A DNA stretch of 64,000 nt from a virus: the IMG/VR virus record IMGVR_UViG_3300042373_001302, positions 1-64,000 of that record. One strand, 5' to 3'. Numbering within the stretch: the stretch's first letter is position 1; each line of letters starts with the position of its first letter. Below, one piece after another: positions 10,965 through 61,192 of this stretch. The notes beneath the pieces are model-generated. The model did not search any database. It saw nothing but the letters and a program-made list of their open reading frames with translations, and was not told the DNA's origin. The translations under genes and the position numbers were made by a program.

Positions 10965-11903
10965 ATGAAACAAGGAGTATATCAAATAAGAAATTTAGTA
11001 AATAAAAAAAGATATATCGGTAGTTCTATTGATTTAAATAAAAGAAAAGATGAGCATTTTTACTATCTTAGAAGAAATGCTCATCATAATATACATTTAC
11101 AAAATTCTTTTAATGAATATGGTGAAAGTAAATTTTTATTTGAAACTATTGAATCTAATGATAATTTAGATAGAGATGAACTTTATGAATTAGAGCAGTT
11201 TTATATAGATTCTTTTAATTGGGAAAATCTTTATAATATAAATAAAGATGTTAAAAGTGGTGGTTCAGATGTATTATCTATTCCTATATTACTTTTAGAT
11301 TTAAATCATAATATTATAGAAGAATTTGAAAGTATTCAACAATGTAGTAGATTTTTAAATAAATCACAAATTAATTCTAATCGATTAAACAACAATACAA
11401 TTATTTCTAATAATTATAGAATTGTAACTAAAGATTTTTATGATTCTGAAATAGAAGAAATTTTAAGTTGGAAAAATAAATTAGAAGAACAACTTGTTGA
11501 AGAAGAAAATCGTGAAGAATATAAAAGATTAAATAAAATAATTTATTTAGATTTAAATAATAAAACATATAGATTTGAAACATTAAAAGAAGCTGGAAAT
11601 TTTGTAAATCTTTCAAGTGAAAGAGTTAGACAAATACTTAATTCAGATTGGAAAATTAATCAAAAATATAAATTTTATAATTTGTGTGATAAAGAAACAA
11701 AATATCAAAATCAAAAAGAATTAGAAACATATTTACAAAATAAACCCATTAAAACAAAATATGATAAATATTACAAATTTGATGAAAAATCAAATGAATG
11801 GATAGTTTTTACAGAAGATGAAATTATTGCTAAAGTAGATAATGAACAAAAAGCTAAACTAATAAGTAAATATTTATTTAAAACATTACAAGAAGAAGAA
11901 TAA
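10965..11903 (+). CDS. GIY-YIG homing endonuclease, free-standing
   Basis: A 312-residue enzyme. The N-terminal GIY-YIG domain (1-90) shows GVYQIRN and KRYIGSS for the two signature strands, the Arg in LNKRKDEH and the catalytic Glu region in LEQFYIDSF. The rest is modular DNA-binding sequence (LDLNHNIIEEFESIQQCSRFL, then LNNKTYRFETLKEAGNFVNLSSERVRQIL, both like NUMOD/IENR helix-turn-helix units). It is not in an intron: the flanking genes end and start normally, and it has its own promoter and terminator. It is a selfish cassette inserted between two virion genes. Confidence 0.88.
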   Translation: MKQGVYQIRNLVNKKRYIGSSIDLNKRKDEHFYYLRRNAHHNIHLQNSFNEYGESKFLFETIESNDNLDRDELYELEQFYIDSFNWENLYNINKDVKSGGSDVLSIPILLLDLNHNIIEEFESIQQCSRFLNKSQINSNRLNNNTIISNNYRIVTKDFYDSEIEEILSWKNKLEEQLVEEENREEYKRLNKIIYLDLNNKTYRFETLKEAGNFVNLSSERVRQILNSDWKINQKYKFYNLCDKETKYQNQKELETYLQNKPIKTKYDKYYKFDEKSNEWIVFTEDEIIAKVDNEQKAKLISKYLFKTLQEEE

Positions 11904-52129: not shown

Positions 52130-52717
52130 TTACATTTTTAATTTTAATTGATCTTCATTTTGATTTTCAAATTGTGTATTCTTATAATCTACCCAGTCAC
52201 CTGATAAGATTTTTTTACTTTCTGCATATAATTCATTACCTTCAATAATATCATTTAAAATATGAATTGATACTCTTCCAAAAGGACTTTCAATTTCTTC
52301 TCTTTTCATATATGAATGATCTAAATTATTAGGAATATAATTTTCTAAATTATCAATTTCTTTTAATTTATCACTTGAAATTTCATATACTTCTAATTTA
52401 ATTGATGTTGAACCACCTAATGTAACAACAGGTTCACTACCTCCAATATCCCATAAACTAAAAATAGGAATAGTATAAAAACTTCCTAAATATTTTGAAG
52501 ACATGATTATGTTATGCTTTTTACAAGTTTTTCTAAGATTAGCATAAACAGCTAATAAAAAATTTTCTTCCATTTTTACATTTTTATTTTTATTTCTTCT
52601 TTCTTTTTTTTGTTGTTTTTTTAATTCTGATTTTTCTAATCTTATTTTATTTCTTTCTTTAATTCGTTCAAGTTCAAATTCATTAAGTTGTCTTTTATTT
52701 CTACTTCTTCTTGTCAT
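52130..52717 (-). CDS. GGCT/AIG2-like cyclotransferase with basic N-terminal extension
   Basis: A 195-residue protein. Residues 1-50 are strongly basic (TRRSRNKRQ; LKKQQKKERRNKNKN) and could bind nucleic acid. Residues 53-190 match the GGCT/AIG2 fold: LAVYANLRK for the substrate loop (usual YGSLR), KYLGSFYTIPIFSLW, a Gly-Gly strand, KLEVYEI, and the C-terminal LSGDWVDY. The catalytic Glu region is LENYIPN. A paralogue without the extension lies at 60463-60849. GGCT enzymes cyclise gamma-glutamyl groups, which fits the amidoligase cluster. Confidence 0.75.
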   Translation of the reverse strand: MTRRSRNKRQLNEFELERIKERNKIRLEKSELKKQQKKERRNKNKNVKMEENFLLAVYANLRKTCKKHNIIMSSKYLGSFYTIPIFSLWDIGGSEPVVTLGGSTSIKLEVYEISSDKLKEIDNLENYIPNNLDHSYMKREEIESPFGRVSIHILNDIIEGNELYAESKKILSGDWVDYKNTQFENQNEDQLKLKM

Positions 52718-55665: not shown

Positions 55666-56607
55666 TTAACGACGTATCATTTGTATAATATTGTGAACTT
55701 TATCTAAACCTGCTTTATCATCAGGTTTAGGTAATTCTTTAAAATAATTTACAGCACCATCAAAATATAAAGGACATATCGTTCCAGCTCCTCCTTCACG
55801 ACCACCTAATATTTCCAAAAATCTTATATTATCTTTAAAAAATCTAATATTGTAACCATAATAGTCTTCTATTTCATGTCTAAATGGACTAAATAAACCA
55901 ACTATCACATTAGCATCTCTTTGAGTCATTTTATTATCTCCAAGACCATCTAATGAAGGTTTTAATTTATTAGCTTTTTTATTTTCTATAGATTCTTGTG
56001 CTGCTGCTTGTTGTTGAATTACTACTGGTATATAACCAAATCTATTTCGTAATTTAATTAAATAATCTGAACTTAATTTACCTATTGATTCATGTAAAGT
56101 CATAGGTAATCCTGTGTCTTTGTTTTTTTCTGTACTAATTAAACCAATATGATCAATAATACACATTACATATTCTTCAGGATCATTAGGTTCATAATAA
56201 TCTTCTACTTCAATAAATTCATCTTTTTTAGTTTCTATACGTCTTTTATGAATTTTACCATGATTAATAGCATAATTTCTTAAAAGTGTATAGATACCAT
56301 AAGGATTTCTTATATCATCAATAAATTCAACAATTTCCTCAATTTTTTCAAAATAAGGTTTATATTTTTCAATTACTTTTAAAATTTCTTCAGGGAGAAT
56401 TTTATCTGCTTTTGTACTTTTTAAATGCATAGGACTAATCCTAATACCTTCTTTTTCATATAATATGTTAGCAAAAGCTGATAACATTTTTTCTTCTTTA
56501 GACATTTCTAAAGTAAAATAAAATATTTTTAATCTTATATTAAGATTATTATCTATAACTTGTTTTATAGTATTATATAAGAACAAGCTGTCTGCAATTT
56601 GAGTTTT
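55666..56607 (-). CDS. dnaB: Replicative DNA helicase DnaB-type, exon 3 (RecA-like domain)
   Basis: Exon 3 encodes 313 residues starting KTQIADSLFLYN. Its FYFTLEMSKEEKM, VMCIIDHIGLIS (Walker B), VVIQQQAAAQES (H4-like) and DGLGDNKMTQRDANVIVGL segments are the C-terminal part of the DnaB helicase core. Read alone it lacks both a start and the P-loop: the frame upstream meets a TAG at 56617-56619 and the apparent TTG start at 56586 is internal. Joined to exon 2 (58656-58664) and exon 1 (59705-59875) it gives A-N-S-K-V-G-K-T, a perfect Walker A, in a 373-residue protein. Splice sites are predicted. Confidence 0.85.
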   Translation of the reverse strand, partial: KTQIADSLFLYNTIKQVIDNNLNIRLKIFYFTLEMSKEEKMLSAFANILYEKEGIRISPMHLKSTKADKILPEEILKVIEKYKPYFEKIEEIVEFIDDIRNPYGIYTLLRNYAINHGKIHKRRIETKKDEFIEVEDYYEPNDPEEYVMCIIDHIGLISTEKNKDTGLPMTLHESIGKLSSDYLIKLRNRFGYIPVVIQQQAAAQESIENKKANKLKPSLDGLGDNKMTQRDANVIVGLFSPFRHEIEDYYGYNIRFFKDNIRFLEILGGREGGAGTICPLYFDGAVNYFKELPKPDDKAGLDKVHNIIQMIRR

Positions 56608-56634
56608 CTTTTACTCTATAATTTAATAATTAAA

Positions 56635-57249
56635 TTATACGGTTGTATTTACACACCAAATTTTAATATTATTATCACTATTTGGATTTAAAAACCAATC
56701 TGTAGTAGTCATACTAAGTTGTTGTAACCAAGTATAATAATCTTCATGATTATCATTACGATTAGTACTAAAAATAATAGCTCCTCTACTACTATTTCTA
56801 CAAATTTGTTTAATTGTATTGATAATATTAGTAAAAATACTTTTTTTCAAAGCAACATAATCATCATGTGTAGTATCAACATGTTGTTCAATTACATTTA
56901 TTATAGGATTTAAACCACTAATAGTTTCAATACCACAAGAAAAATCAGGATTTTCTCTTGAAAAACCTACAGTTCTTTCTACAAGTTGATTAGTTCTATC
57001 ATTAAATCTAAATCTTATCACATTATTGTCATTTGTAACAACAATACTTTGAATAATTTGATTTTCTGTTCTAATTGGTGGTAGAGGTGGTACAACATTA
57101 ACATCTTCAAATAAACTTCTGTCATATCTAACTAATTTACCTGAATCATTAATAATTTTTACATAGTTACCATCTTCTTCCTCAATATTATATTCCGTAT
57201 TTAATGTAATTTTATAATTTTTAGTATTTTTACATTTTAATTTTGCCAT
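56635..57249 (-). CDS. ORF in 3' part of intron B, unknown
   Basis: A 204-residue protein from the ATG at 57249 (an upstream ATG at 57306 lies inside the intron's P7 element and is unlikely). It starts MAKLKCKNTKNYKITLNTEYNIEEEDG, a small SH3-like looking beta domain, then a PPLPPIR linker, a beta middle, and a helical C-terminus with RGAIIFSTNRNDN and NIKIWCVNTTV. No LAGLIDADG, GIY-YIG, HNH or His-Cys box motif is present. It lies between the intron S element and the 3' splice site. Confidence 0.55.
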   Translation of the reverse strand: MAKLKCKNTKNYKITLNTEYNIEEEDGNYVKIINDSGKLVRYDRSLFEDVNVVPPLPPIRTENQIIQSIVVTNDNNVIRFRFNDRTNQLVERTVGFSRENPDFSCGIETISGLNPIINVIEQHVDTTHDDYVALKKSIFTNIINTIKQICRNSSRGAIIFSTNRNDNHEDYYTWLQQLSMTTTDWFLNPNSDNNIKIWCVNTTV

Positions 57250-57264
57250 TTTTATAATTTTTAA

Positions 57265-57393
57265 TTTAATATTTATATTTATAGTTTGGACTATCTCTTC
57301 AACCATTATGGTTGCTGGACGCTATAAGCTCACCGTAGTGTCTTTAGTCTCTACACCTTCATCAGTCTTCCCTGAAGCTTGGCACGGTATTGT
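57265..57393 (-). ncRNA. Catalytic core of group I intron B
   Basis: Contains P3 (57388-57384 with 57336-57332), the R-like element ending AGACTA near 57345, and the S element from 57300 to 57288, in the order P3-P4/P6-R-P8-S. The similarity to the T4 td intron core (AGUAGACAAU, CCGUGC) points to subgroup IA. Confidence 0.75.
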
Positions 57394-58095
57394 CTACTTA
57401 AAAAATACTGATTTTAAATATCTTTCACAAGTTTTAAACTTTTTTTCTTCTAATAATTCAAACACTTTTTTTCTTTCAGCTTGTTTACCATGTTTTACAG
57501 TACCTCCTACATACATATAAATATGATTATATGTTAAAAAAGTTTTATCACCAAAAAACTTATGGAATTCAGTTAATGTTTTAAATGGTTTGTTTAAATA
57601 ATCAGTATTTGATGACCAAGTTTCAACAGATGGATCATAAAAACCATCCATAATTGGAGTATAATATGAAGGCATTTTATAATATTGATTTATACCAGTA
57701 TTTATTTTATGCCAATTATAATAATGTGCTAATAAAAAAGCATTTTGAATTGTAACACCTAATTTATTCATCATTATTGTGTCTTCAAGAATTTTACGAA
57801 TATCTTTAGTTCTTGTATATCTACAAATTCTAAAGAAAAATACTTGAACAGATTCAATTTTATTTTCAAATTCAAAACTATTATCTGTTACATTTGTAAT
57901 AATTGTTTTAAATCTAAATCTTTTTATAATATCTATTAATAAAGATACATCTTCAGAATCATATGTTTCAAATCTGTGTAGCAAACCTTCTTTATAACCA
58001 TTTCCACAACTCATATTTGTAAAATTAAATTTTATATTAAGAGCACTTGATGCATTACTAGGTCCTACTTTAAGTTTTGTTAAGTATTTACTCAT
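57394..58095 (-). CDS. ORF in a peripheral loop of intron B, unknown
   Basis: A 233-residue protein. Its start codon and stop codon lie within the two strands of a 12-bp complementary pair (CTATTTAAAAAA / TTTTTTAAGTAG), so the gene occupies the loop of an intron helix, the usual site for intron ORFs. Sequence: a Cys/Gly motif NMSCGNGYKEG, an IIKRFRFKTIITNVTDNSFEFEN segment, a helical middle and a basic end with KHGKQAERKKVFELLEEKKFK. I recognise no endonuclease or maturase motif; it could be a divergent one or phage cargo. Confidence 0.6.
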   Translation of the reverse strand: MSKYLTKLKVGPSNASSALNIKFNFTNMSCGNGYKEGLLHRFETYDSEDVSLLIDIIKRFRFKTIITNVTDNSFEFENKIESVQVFFFRICRYTRTKDIRKILEDTIMMNKLGVTIQNAFLLAHYYNWHKINTGINQYYKMPSYYTPIMDGFYDPSVETWSSNTDYLNKPFKTLTEFHKFFGDKTFLTYNHIYMYVGGTVKHGKQAERKKVFELLEEKKFKTCERYLKSVFFK

Positions 58096-58152
58096 TTTTT
58101 AAATAGATTTTCACCGTTTTCATCCAGTTTAATGTAAACTATTATACGGTTG

Positions 58153-58596
58153 TTAATATTTTCTCATTTTTTCATAATCAGCTAAAGAATAGCCGTCTAT
58201 ACCTTTTGTAGTATAATAATTACTTTTAGCATGTGATGACATATATGATGCATTACCATTATTGTAATATTTTACAGTAACTTTTTGAATCATATTACAC
58301 CATACTAACACTACAGCTTTGTCTTCTTTAATAAATTCAAATATTAACTTTACAACACTTTCTAAAGATGTTATGGGAAATCTTGATTTAACAATCATAT
58401 GAAGATCTGTAATGCTTCTAAATGCATTTACTTTTGTATCTTGACCTTTACCATCACATTGTAATTTTGTGCATTCTGGGTCATCGTATGTAGGTATAGA
58501 TTTACCTCTTAAAAAGTATCTAAGAAGTTGTTTACGAGATGTAGTAATTGGTACATCTGTTTCTTTAACATAAATTAATTTCTCATTTTGTTTCAT
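58153..58596 (-). CDS. ORF in 5' part of intron B, unknown
   Basis: A 147-residue protein located between intron B's P1 and its next helix. Seen: SRKQLLRYFLRGKSIPTYDD, then CTKLQCDGKGQDTK, and a C-terminal YNNGNASYMSSHAKSNYYTTKG. No known homing endonuclease motif; the two Cys are not in a zinc pattern. The ATG has an AT-rich leader like other phage genes here. Its 3' end carries a 13-bp sequence repeated at the 3' end of the 204-residue ORF. Confidence 0.55.
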   Translation of the reverse strand: MKQNEKLIYVKETDVPITTSRKQLLRYFLRGKSIPTYDDPECTKLQCDGKGQDTKVNAFRSITDLHMIVKSRFPITSLESVVKLIFEFIKEDKAVVLVWCNMIQKVTVKYYNNGNASYMSSHAKSNYYTTKGIDGYSLADYEKMRKY

Positions 58597-58655
58597 TTTT
58601 ATTTAATAGTTTAAATTTTTACATCTAATTATTACTAACTAGCTTGGCAAACGCT

Positions 58656-58664
58656 ACCAACTTT
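58656..58664 (-). CDS. dnaB: Replicative DNA helicase, exon 2 (9-nt microexon encoding K-V-G of Walker A)
   Basis: AAAGTTGGT on the - strand. It is preceded by intron A ending ...AAAAG and followed by intron B, whose first helix P1 pairs TTGGT with GCCAA and puts a U-G pair at the junction. An in-frame TAA 12-14 bases upstream of the GGT codon rules out a longer exon. Joining it in frame between ...ANS (exon 1) and KTQ... (exon 3) restores A-x4-G-K-T. This is a prediction from reading frame and intron rules. Confidence 0.72.
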
Positions 58665-58671
58665 CTTTTAT

Positions 58672-58886
58672 ATTCTATATAAAACGCAACTTTTATACAC
58701 GTTCTCTTACGAACTGCTATATGTCCCCATATAGAATAGACTATATCTTTATCTCATTGAGATAGCTCCCTTTTCCACAACCATAAGCTTGTTGTGTACA
58801 CCTGCGGCGGTTAGTCGTTGAACGTTCCTTTATATAATAAAGGCTTCGCTGCTGATTACCTGTTCTAGGCTTCCCAGCAATTAAAG
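58672..58886 (-). ncRNA. Catalytic core of group I intron A
   Basis: The P3-P9 region begins ten bases after the GIY-YIG stop codon. The Q, R and S elements named for intron A occur in the correct order and spacing, with a P8 arm containing ACAACAAGCTTATGGTTGT as its hairpin. It is GC-richer than the surrounding coding sequence, as expected for a ribozyme core. Confidence 0.88.
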
Positions 58887-58896
58887 AGCTTGTCAT

Positions 58897-59610
58897 TTAG
58901 ATGTCACCATCTAACGTAGCTATTTCAATATAATATTTGTTTTTAAATTTACTTTTTCTTTTAATACTTTGTGATATCTGACTTGGAAAACAATTAAAAT
59001 AATTAGCACATTCTTTTAAAGAATTAAAAGACATTTCTAGTTGTAAACTATTATAATTTATAATATTTACTTTTTTATTTAAAAATGTATTATCTTTTTT
59101 ATCTTTAATATAAGGTTCTAATTTATTAACATAATTTAAAGACCATAAATAATTACCTCCTTTTTTATATGTTTTATTTAAAAATCTACAAATTGTAGAT
59201 TGATGAATATTATTTTCTTTACATGCTTTTATAATATAATCATAACTTTTAATAAAATTACCATTTAAATCATATTGATGTATTTGTTTACCAAATGAAC
59301 TATGTTCTAAAACTTTTTTTACAATATTAAATTCAGGTTGAAATAAATCAATATAAAATTGTTCTTTTTCAATTAAATTTTCAATTTCACAAAATTCAAG
59401 AATAATATATATAAAATTATTTTCTTTATATTTATTCCAAGAATTTTGTAATATTTTATTATTGTGTTTGTTTTTACGTAATTGACATTTATGATTAATT
59501 AGTCTTTCACTTAAACTTTTAGAACTTCCAATGTATCTTTTTTGATTTGTAATATTTAAAATACAATAAATACCTGATTTGTTTAATAAATTTTTTCTTA
59601 CTGTTTGCAT
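58897..59610 (-). CDS. Intron-encoded GIY-YIG homing endonuclease
   Basis: A 237-residue enzyme. The catalytic domain (1-90) has SGIYCILNI and KRYIGSSKSL, then ERLINHKCQLRKNKHNNKILQ and LIEKEQFYID with the catalytic Glu. DNA-binding modules follow: IHQYDLNGNFIKSYDYI with an HQSTICRFLN helix (IENR/NUMOD1-like) and a second copy SFNSLKECANYF...SQISQSI. It lies inside intron A upstream of the ribozyme core and has its own promoter within the intron. It would spread the intron into intronless helicase genes. Confidence 0.9.
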   Translation of the reverse strand: MQTVRKNLLNKSGIYCILNITNQKRYIGSSKSLSERLINHKCQLRKNKHNNKILQNSWNKYKENNFIYIILEFCEIENLIEKEQFYIDLFQPEFNIVKKVLEHSSFGKQIHQYDLNGNFIKSYDYIIKACKENNIHQSTICRFLNKTYKKGGNYLWSLNYVNKLEPYIKDKKDNTFLNKKVNIINYNSLQLEMSFNSLKECANYFNCFPSQISQSIKRKSKFKNKYYIEIATLDGDI

Positions 59611-59624
59611 AAAATTATGTTTTA

Positions 59625-59658
59625 TACAAAAATACGAAAAATAAATTAAATTACCAAA
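59625..59658 (-). promoter_or_regulatory. Bacteroidetes-type promoter inside intron A
   Basis: On the - strand TTTGGTAAT from 59658 and TATTTTTGTA ending at 59625, same 34-bp layout as the other four. It lies 14 bases before the GIY-YIG ATG, so the endonuclease can be made from an mRNA that starts inside the intron. Confidence 0.7.
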
Positions 59659-59704
59659 TATTTAACATATTATTAACGCAAATTATTATATTAAATTGAT
59701 GTTA

Positions 59705-59875
59705 ACTATTTGCAGTGACAAGATAATATTTACCTTTTTCTATACCTGGATTTTCTTCTTCAAATCTAGGAAATCCCCAAGGTATACAATTAATTTTATT
59801 ATTTAATAATCTTTCTCGTCTATTTACGAGATTTTCATATACTCTGTCATATAGACTAAAGTTTTCTTTTTTCAT
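59705..59875 (-). CDS. dnaB: Replicative DNA helicase, exon 1 (start of protein to first half of Walker A)
   Basis: 57 codons from the ATG at 59875, directly after the preceding stop. It encodes MKKENFSLYDRVYENL..., then INCIPWGFPRFEEENPGIEKGKYYLVTANS. The G-K-Y-Y-L-V-T-A-N-S strand is the beta strand and first half of a P-loop. The frame then meets a TAA four bases later, where intron A begins. The primase-interacting N-terminal domain of cellular DnaB is absent; this is a core helicase. Confidence 0.82.
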
Positions 59876-60466
59876 CTATTTAATTTGTGATGTCCAATCG
59901 TCATTATCTATTAATTCTTCATCTATAAATGCTGAAAGTCTTGAATGTTCATCTTTACCTTCTTTTTTATAAATAAAATAATCAGCTTGTTGAAGATATG
60001 TATAATTATTTAATGATTTTAAATAAATATCTACAGCATTTAAGATTTGTTCTTTAGAATATTTAGGATTTAATTCCATCCATCTAATTAACTTATCTTT
60101 ACATGCTTGTTCAGAACCCATACTTCCAGGTTTTAAACCTTTCCATTTTTGTCTAAAATCATTAACAAATTGATCAATACCTTCAGTTAATGCACGAGGA
60201 GATCTTTTAAATTGTTTTTTATTATTTATAGAACTAATTTTATCTATTGATATAAAGTCTATTAATAATTTAGCTTTTTCTCTTAATATAATTTTTTCAT
60301 CTTGTCCTTTTTTTATGAATTGTTTTTCTTGTAAATTATTTAACATATTTATATTCCAATTATAATCTACATCATTGTAAAAATTTAATAAAAACATAAA
60401 TTCGTCAATAGATAAATTTTGCTCTTGTATTAGATCATAATCTAATATAAAAGATTTATTTATCAT
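59876..60466 (-). CDS. Putative replication protein / helicase loader
   Basis: A 196-residue protein immediately upstream of helicase exon 1 with no gap. The first 75 residues look like a winged-helix unit (SIDEFMFLLNFYN, MLNNLQEKQFIKK). The second half holds FRQKWKGLKPGSMGSEQACKDKLIRWM and YLQQADYFIYK, a helical pattern I associate with phage replication organiser or DnaT-like proteins of Bacteroidetes. A loader role is inferred from layout and position. Confidence 0.5.
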   Translation of the reverse strand: MINKSFILDYDLIQEQNLSIDEFMFLLNFYNDVDYNWNINMLNNLQEKQFIKKGQDEKIILREKAKLLIDFISIDKISSINNKKQFKRSPRALTEGIDQFVNDFRQKWKGLKPGSMGSEQACKDKLIRWMELNPKYSKEQILNAVDIYLKSLNNYTYLQQADYFIYKKEGKDEHSRLSAFIDEELIDNDDWTSQIK

Positions 60467-60849
60467 GTGTACATTAATTGTTTTTTATGTTCAGTCCAAT
60501 CACCTGATTTAACAAGTCTATCTTCAGTAACATTTGGTACATAAATATAAATACTTGCTTCACCATAAGGTGTATCTATAAATATTTTATCATAAAAAGT
60601 ATTATTTCCTTGTTCGGAATAACCTTCTAATGCATCAACCCAATAAGCTTCTTGATTATTTACTTCATATACTTCAATTACTACTGGAGTATTTCCATTT
60701 TGTTTTAATCCTGGAAATCCACCAAGACTATACAAACTAAAAGTAGGTTCTGTAGTACAGGTTCCTAAATATTTAGCATCTTTAATAATTCCATGATTAT
60801 GAAATCCTTTACGTAATGATCCGTAGACCGCAATTAATTTTTTATTCAT
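60463..60849 (-). CDS. GGCT/AIG2-like gamma-glutamyl cyclotransferase
   Basis: A 128-residue single-domain protein: LIAVYGSLRKGFHNH (canonical YGSLR loop), KYLGTCTTEPTFSLYSLGGFPGL, EVYEV, VDALEGY (catalytic Glu) and a closing SGDWTEH. Family members cyclise gamma-glutamylamines or peptides to 5-oxoproline. A longer paralogue is part of the amidoligase cluster at 52130-52717, about 8 kb away. Four-base overlap with the downstream replication gene. Confidence 0.85.
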   Translation of the reverse strand: MNKKLIAVYGSLRKGFHNHGIIKDAKYLGTCTTEPTFSLYSLGGFPGLKQNGNTPVVIEVYEVNNQEAYWVDALEGYSEQGNNTFYDKIFIDTPYGEASIYIYVPNVTEDRLVKSGDWTEHKKQLMYT

Positions 60850-61192
60850 TTTTTATAAATTGATTCATATAATTTTCAAAATATTCTAAACTATAATCAT
60901 AATATCCACCAAAAAAACTCCAATGTTGACTATTTTTAGGTTCAAATACAACCTTTTTAACATCTGGACAAAATAAAGCTTTAATTTCTTTATTTAAAAA
61001 TAATTCTTTTAAAACTTTAGTAACATCAGATTTTTTATATTCAGCTTTTAATAAATTATATGTAATATAATTTAATGTTACACCTGTATAATATTTACAA
61101 TATTTATTATCTAAAACTTTTAATGTTCTTTTTTTAGAATCAGGATTATCATTTAAATATTTTAATATTTTTTCTTTTATTTCTTCATTCAT
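60842..61192 (-). CDS. Unknown small protein
   Basis: A 116-residue, Lys/Tyr/Asn-rich protein: LKYLNDNPDSKKRTLKVLDN at the start, SDVTKVLKELFLNKEIKALF in the middle (possible winged helix), and an aromatic end with HWSFFGGYYDYSLEYF. No family recognised. It overlaps the GGCT gene by eight bases. Confidence 0.55.
   Translation of the reverse strand: MNEEIKEKILKYLNDNPDSKKRTLKVLDNKYCKYYTGVTLNYITYNLLKAEYKKSDVTKVLKELFLNKEIKALFCPDVKKVVFEPKNSQHWSFFGGYYDYSLEYFENYMNQFIKNE

Follow-up and report, generated by a model that had tools for sequence, protein, structure and literature searches.

The td intron of phage T4 is the type example of a phage group I intron with a homing endonuclease. Phage group I introns hold their open reading frames (ORFs) in peripheral loops, and those that bear an ORF are described as carriers of endonucleases (PMC3984707). 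In collaborative homing, described in phages, a nearby endonuclease moves an intron that has none of its own (PMC10448857), and delta- and zeta-group crAss-like phages are reported to have a high density of introns in their core genes (PMC7886860). Outside phages, the group I intron in the mitochondrial nad5 gene of hexacorals is described as holding ordinary genes, among them nad1 and nad3 and up to 13 in number (PMC10167242), and fungal mitochondrial introns as encoding non-endonuclease proteins, namely rps3 or N-acetyltransferases (PMC8393795). Gene-containing group I introns in hexacoral and fungal mitochondria and collaborative homing in phages are, by these accounts, known already. Among titles and the openings of abstracts, in which subscription journals are thinly covered, we found no phage group I intron described with a set of non-endonuclease genes.

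Here we compare these systems with a phage locus found in a window of 64,000 nucleotides (positions 1–64,000 of IMG/VR record IMGVR_UViG_3300042373_001302; one strand, 5' to 3'), in which two introns, A and B, interrupt a helicase gene. Intron B is, judged by its sequence, a group I intron; it belongs to the same ribozyme class as the endonuclease introns of the T4 td type and likewise carries its ORFs in peripheral loops. It resembles the hexacoral nad5 intron, as described, in being a group I intron with ordinary genes inside, and its genes of the ORF147 type and, by position, of the ORF204 type have orthologues outside the intron in relatives. By this comparison it is the phage counterpart of gene-containing mitochondrial introns; we infer that intron B splices, is expressed and moves. 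The nad5 intron is mitochondrial, whereas intron B holds phage accessory families that turn over in loops P2, P5 and P9, and its intronless relatives, unlike what is described for nad5, keep the same genes next door. It differs from the fungal introns as reported in that several genes share one phage intron, and the likeness between their N-acetyltransferases and the GNAT-like fold of one intron B protein (ORF204) is one of protein type. With collaborative homing it shares a neighbouring endonuclease as the proposed driver, although here the candidate enzyme lies in a second intron, nine exon bases away. The crAss-like introns come from the same phage order and, according to the report, were found through signature domains, mainly those of endonucleases, a route that would miss introns like intron B. 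Because searches for phage introns often rely on the encoded endonuclease, introns like intron B escape notice, and both the interrupted gene and the genes carried inside are taken for separate ones; the annotation of the cultured phage phi14:2 is an example. We consider it quite probable, from the comparison of homologous loci, that intron B is a group I ribozyme turned container for accessory phage genes, with alternative versions of one locus recombining between phages.

Helicase exons and splice sites

The DnaB-like helicase gene lies on the minus strand and is interrupted twice inside its Walker A motif, as follows.

59876–60466, minus strand: dnaC-like gene (putative replisome organiser), immediately before exon 1; from the annotation of the phi14:2 homologue
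59705–59875, minus strand: helicase exon 1, 57 codons, ends ...YYLVTANS; matched in intronless relatives
58665–59704, minus strand: intron A, group I with a GIY-YIG ORF, 1040 nt; homologous core in locus L009
58897–59610, minus strand: GIY-YIG homing endonuclease with NUMOD1, in intron A; Pfam PF01541, E 1.1e-10
58656–58664, minus strand: exon 2, nine bases AAAGTTGGT encoding K V G, between introns A and B; joined to exon 1 in L003 and L004
56608–58655, minus strand: intron B, a group I intron of 2048 nt with a terminal G; from intronless relatives and core pairing
55666–56607, minus strand: helicase exon 3, begins KTQIAD...

The best matches of the helicase are in crAss-like phages (54 annotated records, with Cellulophaga phage phi14:2 at the top at 49%), and the phi14:2 homologue of the dnaC-like gene is annotated 'putative replisome organizer protein'. 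From a helicase profile scan we took the best 80 of 136 loci, more distant helicases falling outside the sample. After removal of nine near-identical loci (L012, L023, L036, L038, L043, L056, L057, L062 and L080) and of loci lacking either exon, 69 loci with both exons entered the counts; site B is occupied by an intron in 26 of them and uninterrupted in 43.

Joined together, exons 1, 2 and 3 form a single uninterrupted DnaB-like helicase frame with the Walker A sequence ANSKVGKTQ, the predicted spliced junction being ...AGTAAAGTGGGT followed by AAATCACAAATT.... Because the helicase frame of intronless relatives runs through the same junction uninterrupted, both splice sites of intron B are fixed at the sequence level, and we could rule out that misplaced splice sites had put the ORFs inside an intron to which they do not belong. 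This bears out, with the exact coordinates, the preliminary description of an intron of about 2 kb with ORFs of 147, 233 and 204 residues. The nine-base exon is confirmed by L003 and L004, which lack intron A and in which exons 1 and 2 are contiguous; it occurs in eight loci with both introns (the window and seven others), and its last five bases serve in P1 of intron B. The core in L009 that is homologous to intron A (1582–1820) scores 88.5 bits against the group I model RF00028.

The same intron is carried by phi14:2, a cultured Cellulophaga phage (Crassvirales, Steigviridae, Asinivirinae), whose locus (L086 1–10909, that is NC_021806 10766–21674) is annotated with the parts of the intron as separate genes. 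There, exon 1 is the hypothetical gene g024, g025 is a gene inside the intron, g026 is an ORF233-type gene, g027 is the ribozyme core read as protein, g028 is an ORF204-type gene, and g029 is a 'DnaB' without its Walker A. Such an annotation is what one would expect if the helicase were merely broken into separate genes with nothing spliced, a reading that we find hardly credible: once both introns are taken out, Walker A is whole again and the frame continuous, purifying selection acts on exon 3 (dN/dS 0.06–0.41, Nei-Gojobori, pairs listed), and the ribozyme core is conserved with covariation. Because phi14:2 is in culture, on Cellulophaga baltica, splicing of this intron is directly testable; its transcription has already been the subject of a study, which PMC10136315 mentions.

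Ribozyme core and loop ORFs

The elements of intron B follow in the order in which they would be transcribed.

58644–58648, minus strand: internal guide sequence GCCAA, pairs with exon UUGGU (P1, U.G at the splice site)
58604–58613, minus strand: P2 5' strand (probable), partner 58135–58144
58153–58596, minus strand: ORF147, 147 aa, family c1a, in the P2 loop
58135–58144, minus strand: P2 3' strand (probable)
58112–58127, minus strand: P3 5' strand (58127–58121) and P4 5' strand (58117–58112)
58093–58107, minus strand: P5 5' strand, including the ORF233 start codon
57394–58095, minus strand: ORF233, 233 aa, family c7, in the P5 loop
57393–57407, minus strand: P5 3' strand, including the ORF233 stop codon
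57289–57389, minus strand: catalytic core (P4 3' strand, P6, P7, P3 3' strand, P8, P7 3' strand)
57279–57284, minus strand: P9 5' strand CTATAA, partner 56616–56621 TTATAG
56635–57249, minus strand: ORF204, family c3, DUF6501-like with a GNAT-like fold, in the P9 loop
56616–56621, minus strand: P9 3' strand TTATAG

Across eight sequences and 33 pairs (with the P5 ORF omitted in four), the core helices P3, P4, P6, P7, which forms the pseudoknot, and P8 are paired in 94.6% of cells, as against 30–43% in controls with slid partners. Compensatory changes affecting both sides occur in P3 and P8, whereas P4, P6 and P7 are invariant and thus silent on covariation. The internal guide of relatives has GCC or GCT at the matching position, and a survey of 24 loci placed at least four P1 pairs at the conserved place in 18 and none in four; the script assigned L053 and the window elsewhere, the P1 of the window being UUGGU/GCCAA. 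The intron ends in TAAAAG in the window, and a G precedes the exon at the site-B junctions listed. Scored against RF00028 (cut-off 50 bits), the intron B homologues in L009 and L011, in which P5 has no ORF, reach 68.8 and 67.1 bits, both above the cut-off. The 3' half of the window core (57266–57427) scores 19.8 bits (E 2.8e-4), below the cut-off, because the 702 bases of ORF233 split P5; for the same reason, scanning the window with Rfam gave no group I match, whether the gathering score or a limit of E 5 was applied. An extra stretch between P7 and P3 suggests that intron B may belong to subgroup IA. We discarded a recurring 'protein' (cluster c0, NPVPSL...GVETNNEQP), which is a translation of the ribozyme core, and an open frame in L046 (3577–4029) reads as two copies of a ribozyme core motif, perhaps a duplicated core.

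The ORFs occupy three different peripheral positions, as the preliminary description had held: ORF147 lies in P2, ORF233 in P5 and ORF204 in P9. The P2 helix is AT-rich and was matched in length by 5 to 54 of 200 shuffles at the six loci tested; the placement of ORF147 in its loop is only suggestive. The helix around ORF233 had been put at 12 bp with the start and stop codons inside; in the window both codons do lie within it, but its length is 15 bp. The helix around the P5 ORF of three relatives has 6–7 bp, and of the two codons it is the stop codon alone that lies inside it throughout, in four of four loci with the window included. For P9, the strings CTATAA and TTATAG are present in nine of nine loci listed, with a different longest helix picked in L003, L004 and L086. 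In L004 the P5 ORF is absent and the loop short, a natural empty site, and in L003 P5 holds a different ORF, a distant ORF147 paralogue. Beyond P9, a further gene of the ORF147 type is present in five loci (L004, L009, L010, L013 and L083).

In our reading, the ribozyme would fold with the ORFs extruded as loops, and splicing would restore the helicase message. The loop ORFs may be translated from the precursor or from the excised intron RNA.

The three encoded proteins

We grouped the proteins into families: ORF147 belongs to c1 (its own group being c1a), ORF204 to c3 and ORF233 to c7. By eye, none of the three had shown a homing endonuclease motif, and Pfam agrees: neither ORF147 and 51 members of its family, nor ORF204 and 23, nor ORF233 and seven gave a homing endonuclease match. 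As positive controls, the ORF of intron A and the ORFs of L054, L058 and L085 do match endonuclease profiles. The three ORFs had only weak, unrelated matches in PHROGs, and PDB sequence searches with the three family profiles returned nothing useful. We also considered defence-system proteins and rejected them, PADLOC giving zero matches.

Endonucleases vary among the homologous loci, LAGLIDADG enzymes lying in the spans of L054, L058 and L085 and GIY-YIG enzymes in intron A of the window and its relatives. Neither endonuclease family searched (c4, c6) is present in 17 of the 26 site-B spans, and all 26 hold other genes, which sets them apart from introns of the T4 td type as these are described. 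LAGLIDADG-type ORFs in L058, L077, L084 and L085, that of L058 checked against Pfam, seemingly belong to a further intron about 25–33 codons into exon 3.

The ORF147 family is multi-copy, with 112 members in 78 loci. Judged by eye on its alignment, ORF147 itself resembles a winged-helix protein, and its type (c1a) is under purifying selection (dN/dS 0.13–0.49, pairs listed). For all these ratios, close pairs deserve more trust, since distant ones approach saturation at synonymous sites. Between L013 and L083, dN/dS is 0.45 for the ORF147 type, 0.38 for the ORF204 type, 0.86 for the ORF233 type and 0.16 for exon 3. An ORF147-type protein of L082 and a c2-type protein of L055 found zero matches among annotated phages. 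A free-standing gene of 116 aa upstream of the helicase (60842–61192) is a distant member of the ORF147 family.

For ORF204, an earlier ATG would give 223 aa, but homologues begin at the ATG that yields 204. DUF6501 matches 20 of 23 family members (best E 2.3e-6) and covers the N-terminal part of ORF204. Structure prediction, proposed for all three proteins in the preliminary description, succeeded here: the model has a pLDDT of 87, and its residues 64–204 are predicted to adopt a GNAT-like fold, with Z of 9.5–8.4 among the 50 matches listed, those being acetyltransferases, though the best Foldseek E is only 4.2e-3. By eye, we saw no classic acetyl-CoA binding motif. For the ORF204 type, dN/dS is 0.26–1.49 (pairs listed).

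The prediction was less informative for ORF233. Its model is weak (pLDDT 63.6), and the fold search pointed to no known fold (Foldseek best E 0.37, best Z 4.0); among the 50 matches listed by Z there is no LAGLIDADG structure, and in the Foldseek listing I-OnuI/I-LtrI rank low with a probability of at most 0.07. One could propose that ORF233 is a new intron-specific protein, either a maturase that assists folding or a new endonuclease, with the other two ORFs as passengers. All six family members in 78 loci lie inside intron B, as does the one in phi14:2, and in whole records the family occurs in four of 25, always in the helicase intron; a further scan for relatives found zero new loci. Such a role also fits the absence of a known fold, as well as the way in which P5 of the window incorporates both ends of the reading frame, start codon and stop codon. 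Nevertheless, only seven of the 26 site-B introns have the family and the others do without it, and the gene, which is mostly in P5, lies near the 5' end in L048. ORF233 has no match above chance level in Pfam, PHROG, NCBIfam or PADLOC, and its type evolves at a dN/dS near 0.9 (0.76–1.04, pairs listed), a higher rate than one would predict for a protein adapted to a ribozyme that is itself conserved. On balance we regard a dedicated intron function for ORF233 as improbable, and return to intron B as a container of accessory genes. The preliminary description had posed an alternative between a new endonuclease or maturase family and ordinary phage genes. For ORF147 and ORF204 the latter has good support, because in intronless relatives members of their families stand on their own as phage genes, mostly by the helicase; for ORF233, seen only in the intron and without a known fold, the former may still apply, but nothing points to an endonuclease.

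Gene island, proposed transfer and spread

Judged by sequence comparison, two of the three cargo families, those of ORF147 and ORF204, recur in intronless relatives, where their genes lie between the dnaC-like gene and the helicase and follow each other as they do in the intron. Counting families c1, c2, c3, c5, c7 and c8 as island families, we found their genes inside the span in 26 of 26 intron loci (from the best 80 of 136, near-copies removed) and between the dnaC-like gene and exon 1 in none of the 25 with a visible dnaC-like gene. In those 25, the distance from the dnaC-like gene to exon 1 is −7 to 189 bases, as compared with 3 to 2825 bases from the dnaC-like gene to the helicase in 33 intronless loci where it is visible. 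Island genes lie in this interval in 29 of the 33 (the exceptions being L025, L072, L079 and L081); L024 was entered by hand as 'upstream' because its ORF overlaps the dnaC-like gene. The association gives a Fisher p of 2.7e-12 with relatedness ignored. In L028 and L084, which we assigned by eye to other introns, the island stays upstream, as expected if only intron B swallowed it.

The gene order c1a-c3-c1b is found outside the intron in L082, L078, L051, L070, L071, L075 and L076, and inside it in L004, L009, L010, L013 and L083, where c1a is separated from c3 by the ribozyme core. A tree of family c1 (97 rows, 143 columns; the same nine near-copies dropped together with L018, L035 and L063) has many weak forks and long branches. 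In it, the c1a group (support 98) joins 26 upstream, nine in-intron and one far member, and the c1b group (support 86) joins 11 upstream and 11 in-intron members. Orthologues of both are thus found inside and outside the intron, and the same holds for c3 by position.

These observations have to be weighed against a reading without island capture, in which mobile gene families repeatedly enter non-coding space near replication genes, loops included, and part of the agreement in order is due to chance. In its favour, ORF147-type genes have many copies, some of them downstream of the helicase and elsewhere in genomes, in four records ORF204-type genes are some 20 kb or more away from the helicase, and introns in other genes carry the same families. 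It does not readily account for a c1a-c3-c1b order that is shared by in-intron and outside sets and has orthologues at both ends, nor for 0 of 25 loci having island genes both upstream and inside. We consider repeated entry rather unlikely, and island capture by intron B the better account.

On the helicase tree of 72 rows, seven intron changes are required, at least six of them forced by supported branches; a careful tree of 58 rows with both traits has four. The four independent pairs show the opposite shift of the island in two to three and a shift in the same direction in none (sign test p 0.25–0.5). The direction is consistent, then, although the number of independent events behind the pattern is small. 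ORF147 of the window groups with those of L003 and L004 (support 99), whereas exon 3 of the window is nearer to L009, L010, L013 and L083; cargo and exon differ in history, which fits transfer of the intron between lineages. Genes may have moved into the intron or out of it, both directions fitting the comparison.

The same kind of core is found in other genes. In our core-sequence search the first core pattern yielded 100 stretches and the second another 28, and 92 of 125 analysed loci had neither the helicase nor these gene families. Twenty-one loci have a core flanked by both halves of one window homologue: 19 are this helicase (some on contigs already sampled), one is a primase-like gene (L198) and one an SNF2-type helicase (L210). 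In L210 the exon junction falls at residues 108/109 and an ORF204-type gene is present (profile probability 99.5), and in L198 the core is accompanied by c5- and c1-type (ORF147-type) genes. ORF204-type genes also lie beside cores in a probable DNA polymerase B, recognised by eye, in L199, L201, L211 and L215; for L201, Pfam gave nothing beyond an RNase H match below the threshold. At L207 and L202, too, similar cores accompanied by accessory ORFs occur in other genes, and the hosts of similar cores (L210, L198, L207, L199, L201, L211, L215 and L202) include another DnaB-like gene.

Taken together, we propose that a cargo-bearing intron and an intronless helicase preceded by its island would be alternative versions of one locus that recombine between phages. 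Intron B was probably moved by endonucleases that the intron B of the window does not itself encode. Plausibly, the GIY-YIG enzyme of intron A, nine exon bases away, would make a cut whose repair copies intron B together with its cargo. The cargo probably consists of early accessory or host-conflict proteins, which is the weakest step of the scheme. If confirmed, phage group I introns can hold whole gene sets, which would offer accessory genes a route to spread while protected from loss and would explain the fragmented-looking genes in this region. More generally, we can only tentatively suggest, and with some doubt, that group I introns of crAss-like phages are cargo vehicles that pick up accessory genes in their loops and take them from phage to phage and into several genes essential for replication, the drive coming from endonucleases that neighbouring introns encode or from ones alternately gained and lost, with the helicase as a safe dock for rotating conflict genes.

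Several features of the window lie apart from intron B. A tRNA search of the window found none. A second GIY-YIG gene lies on the plus strand (10965–11903; Pfam 35 bits). Within the core region of intron A (58713–58799), 87 bases are 83% identical to the distant Vibrio phage 11895-B1, which suggests intron spread. The helicase region is flanked by two paralogous genes, 52130–52717 and 60463–60849, with 35% identity over 126 aa, which look gamma-glutamylcyclotransferase-like by eye.
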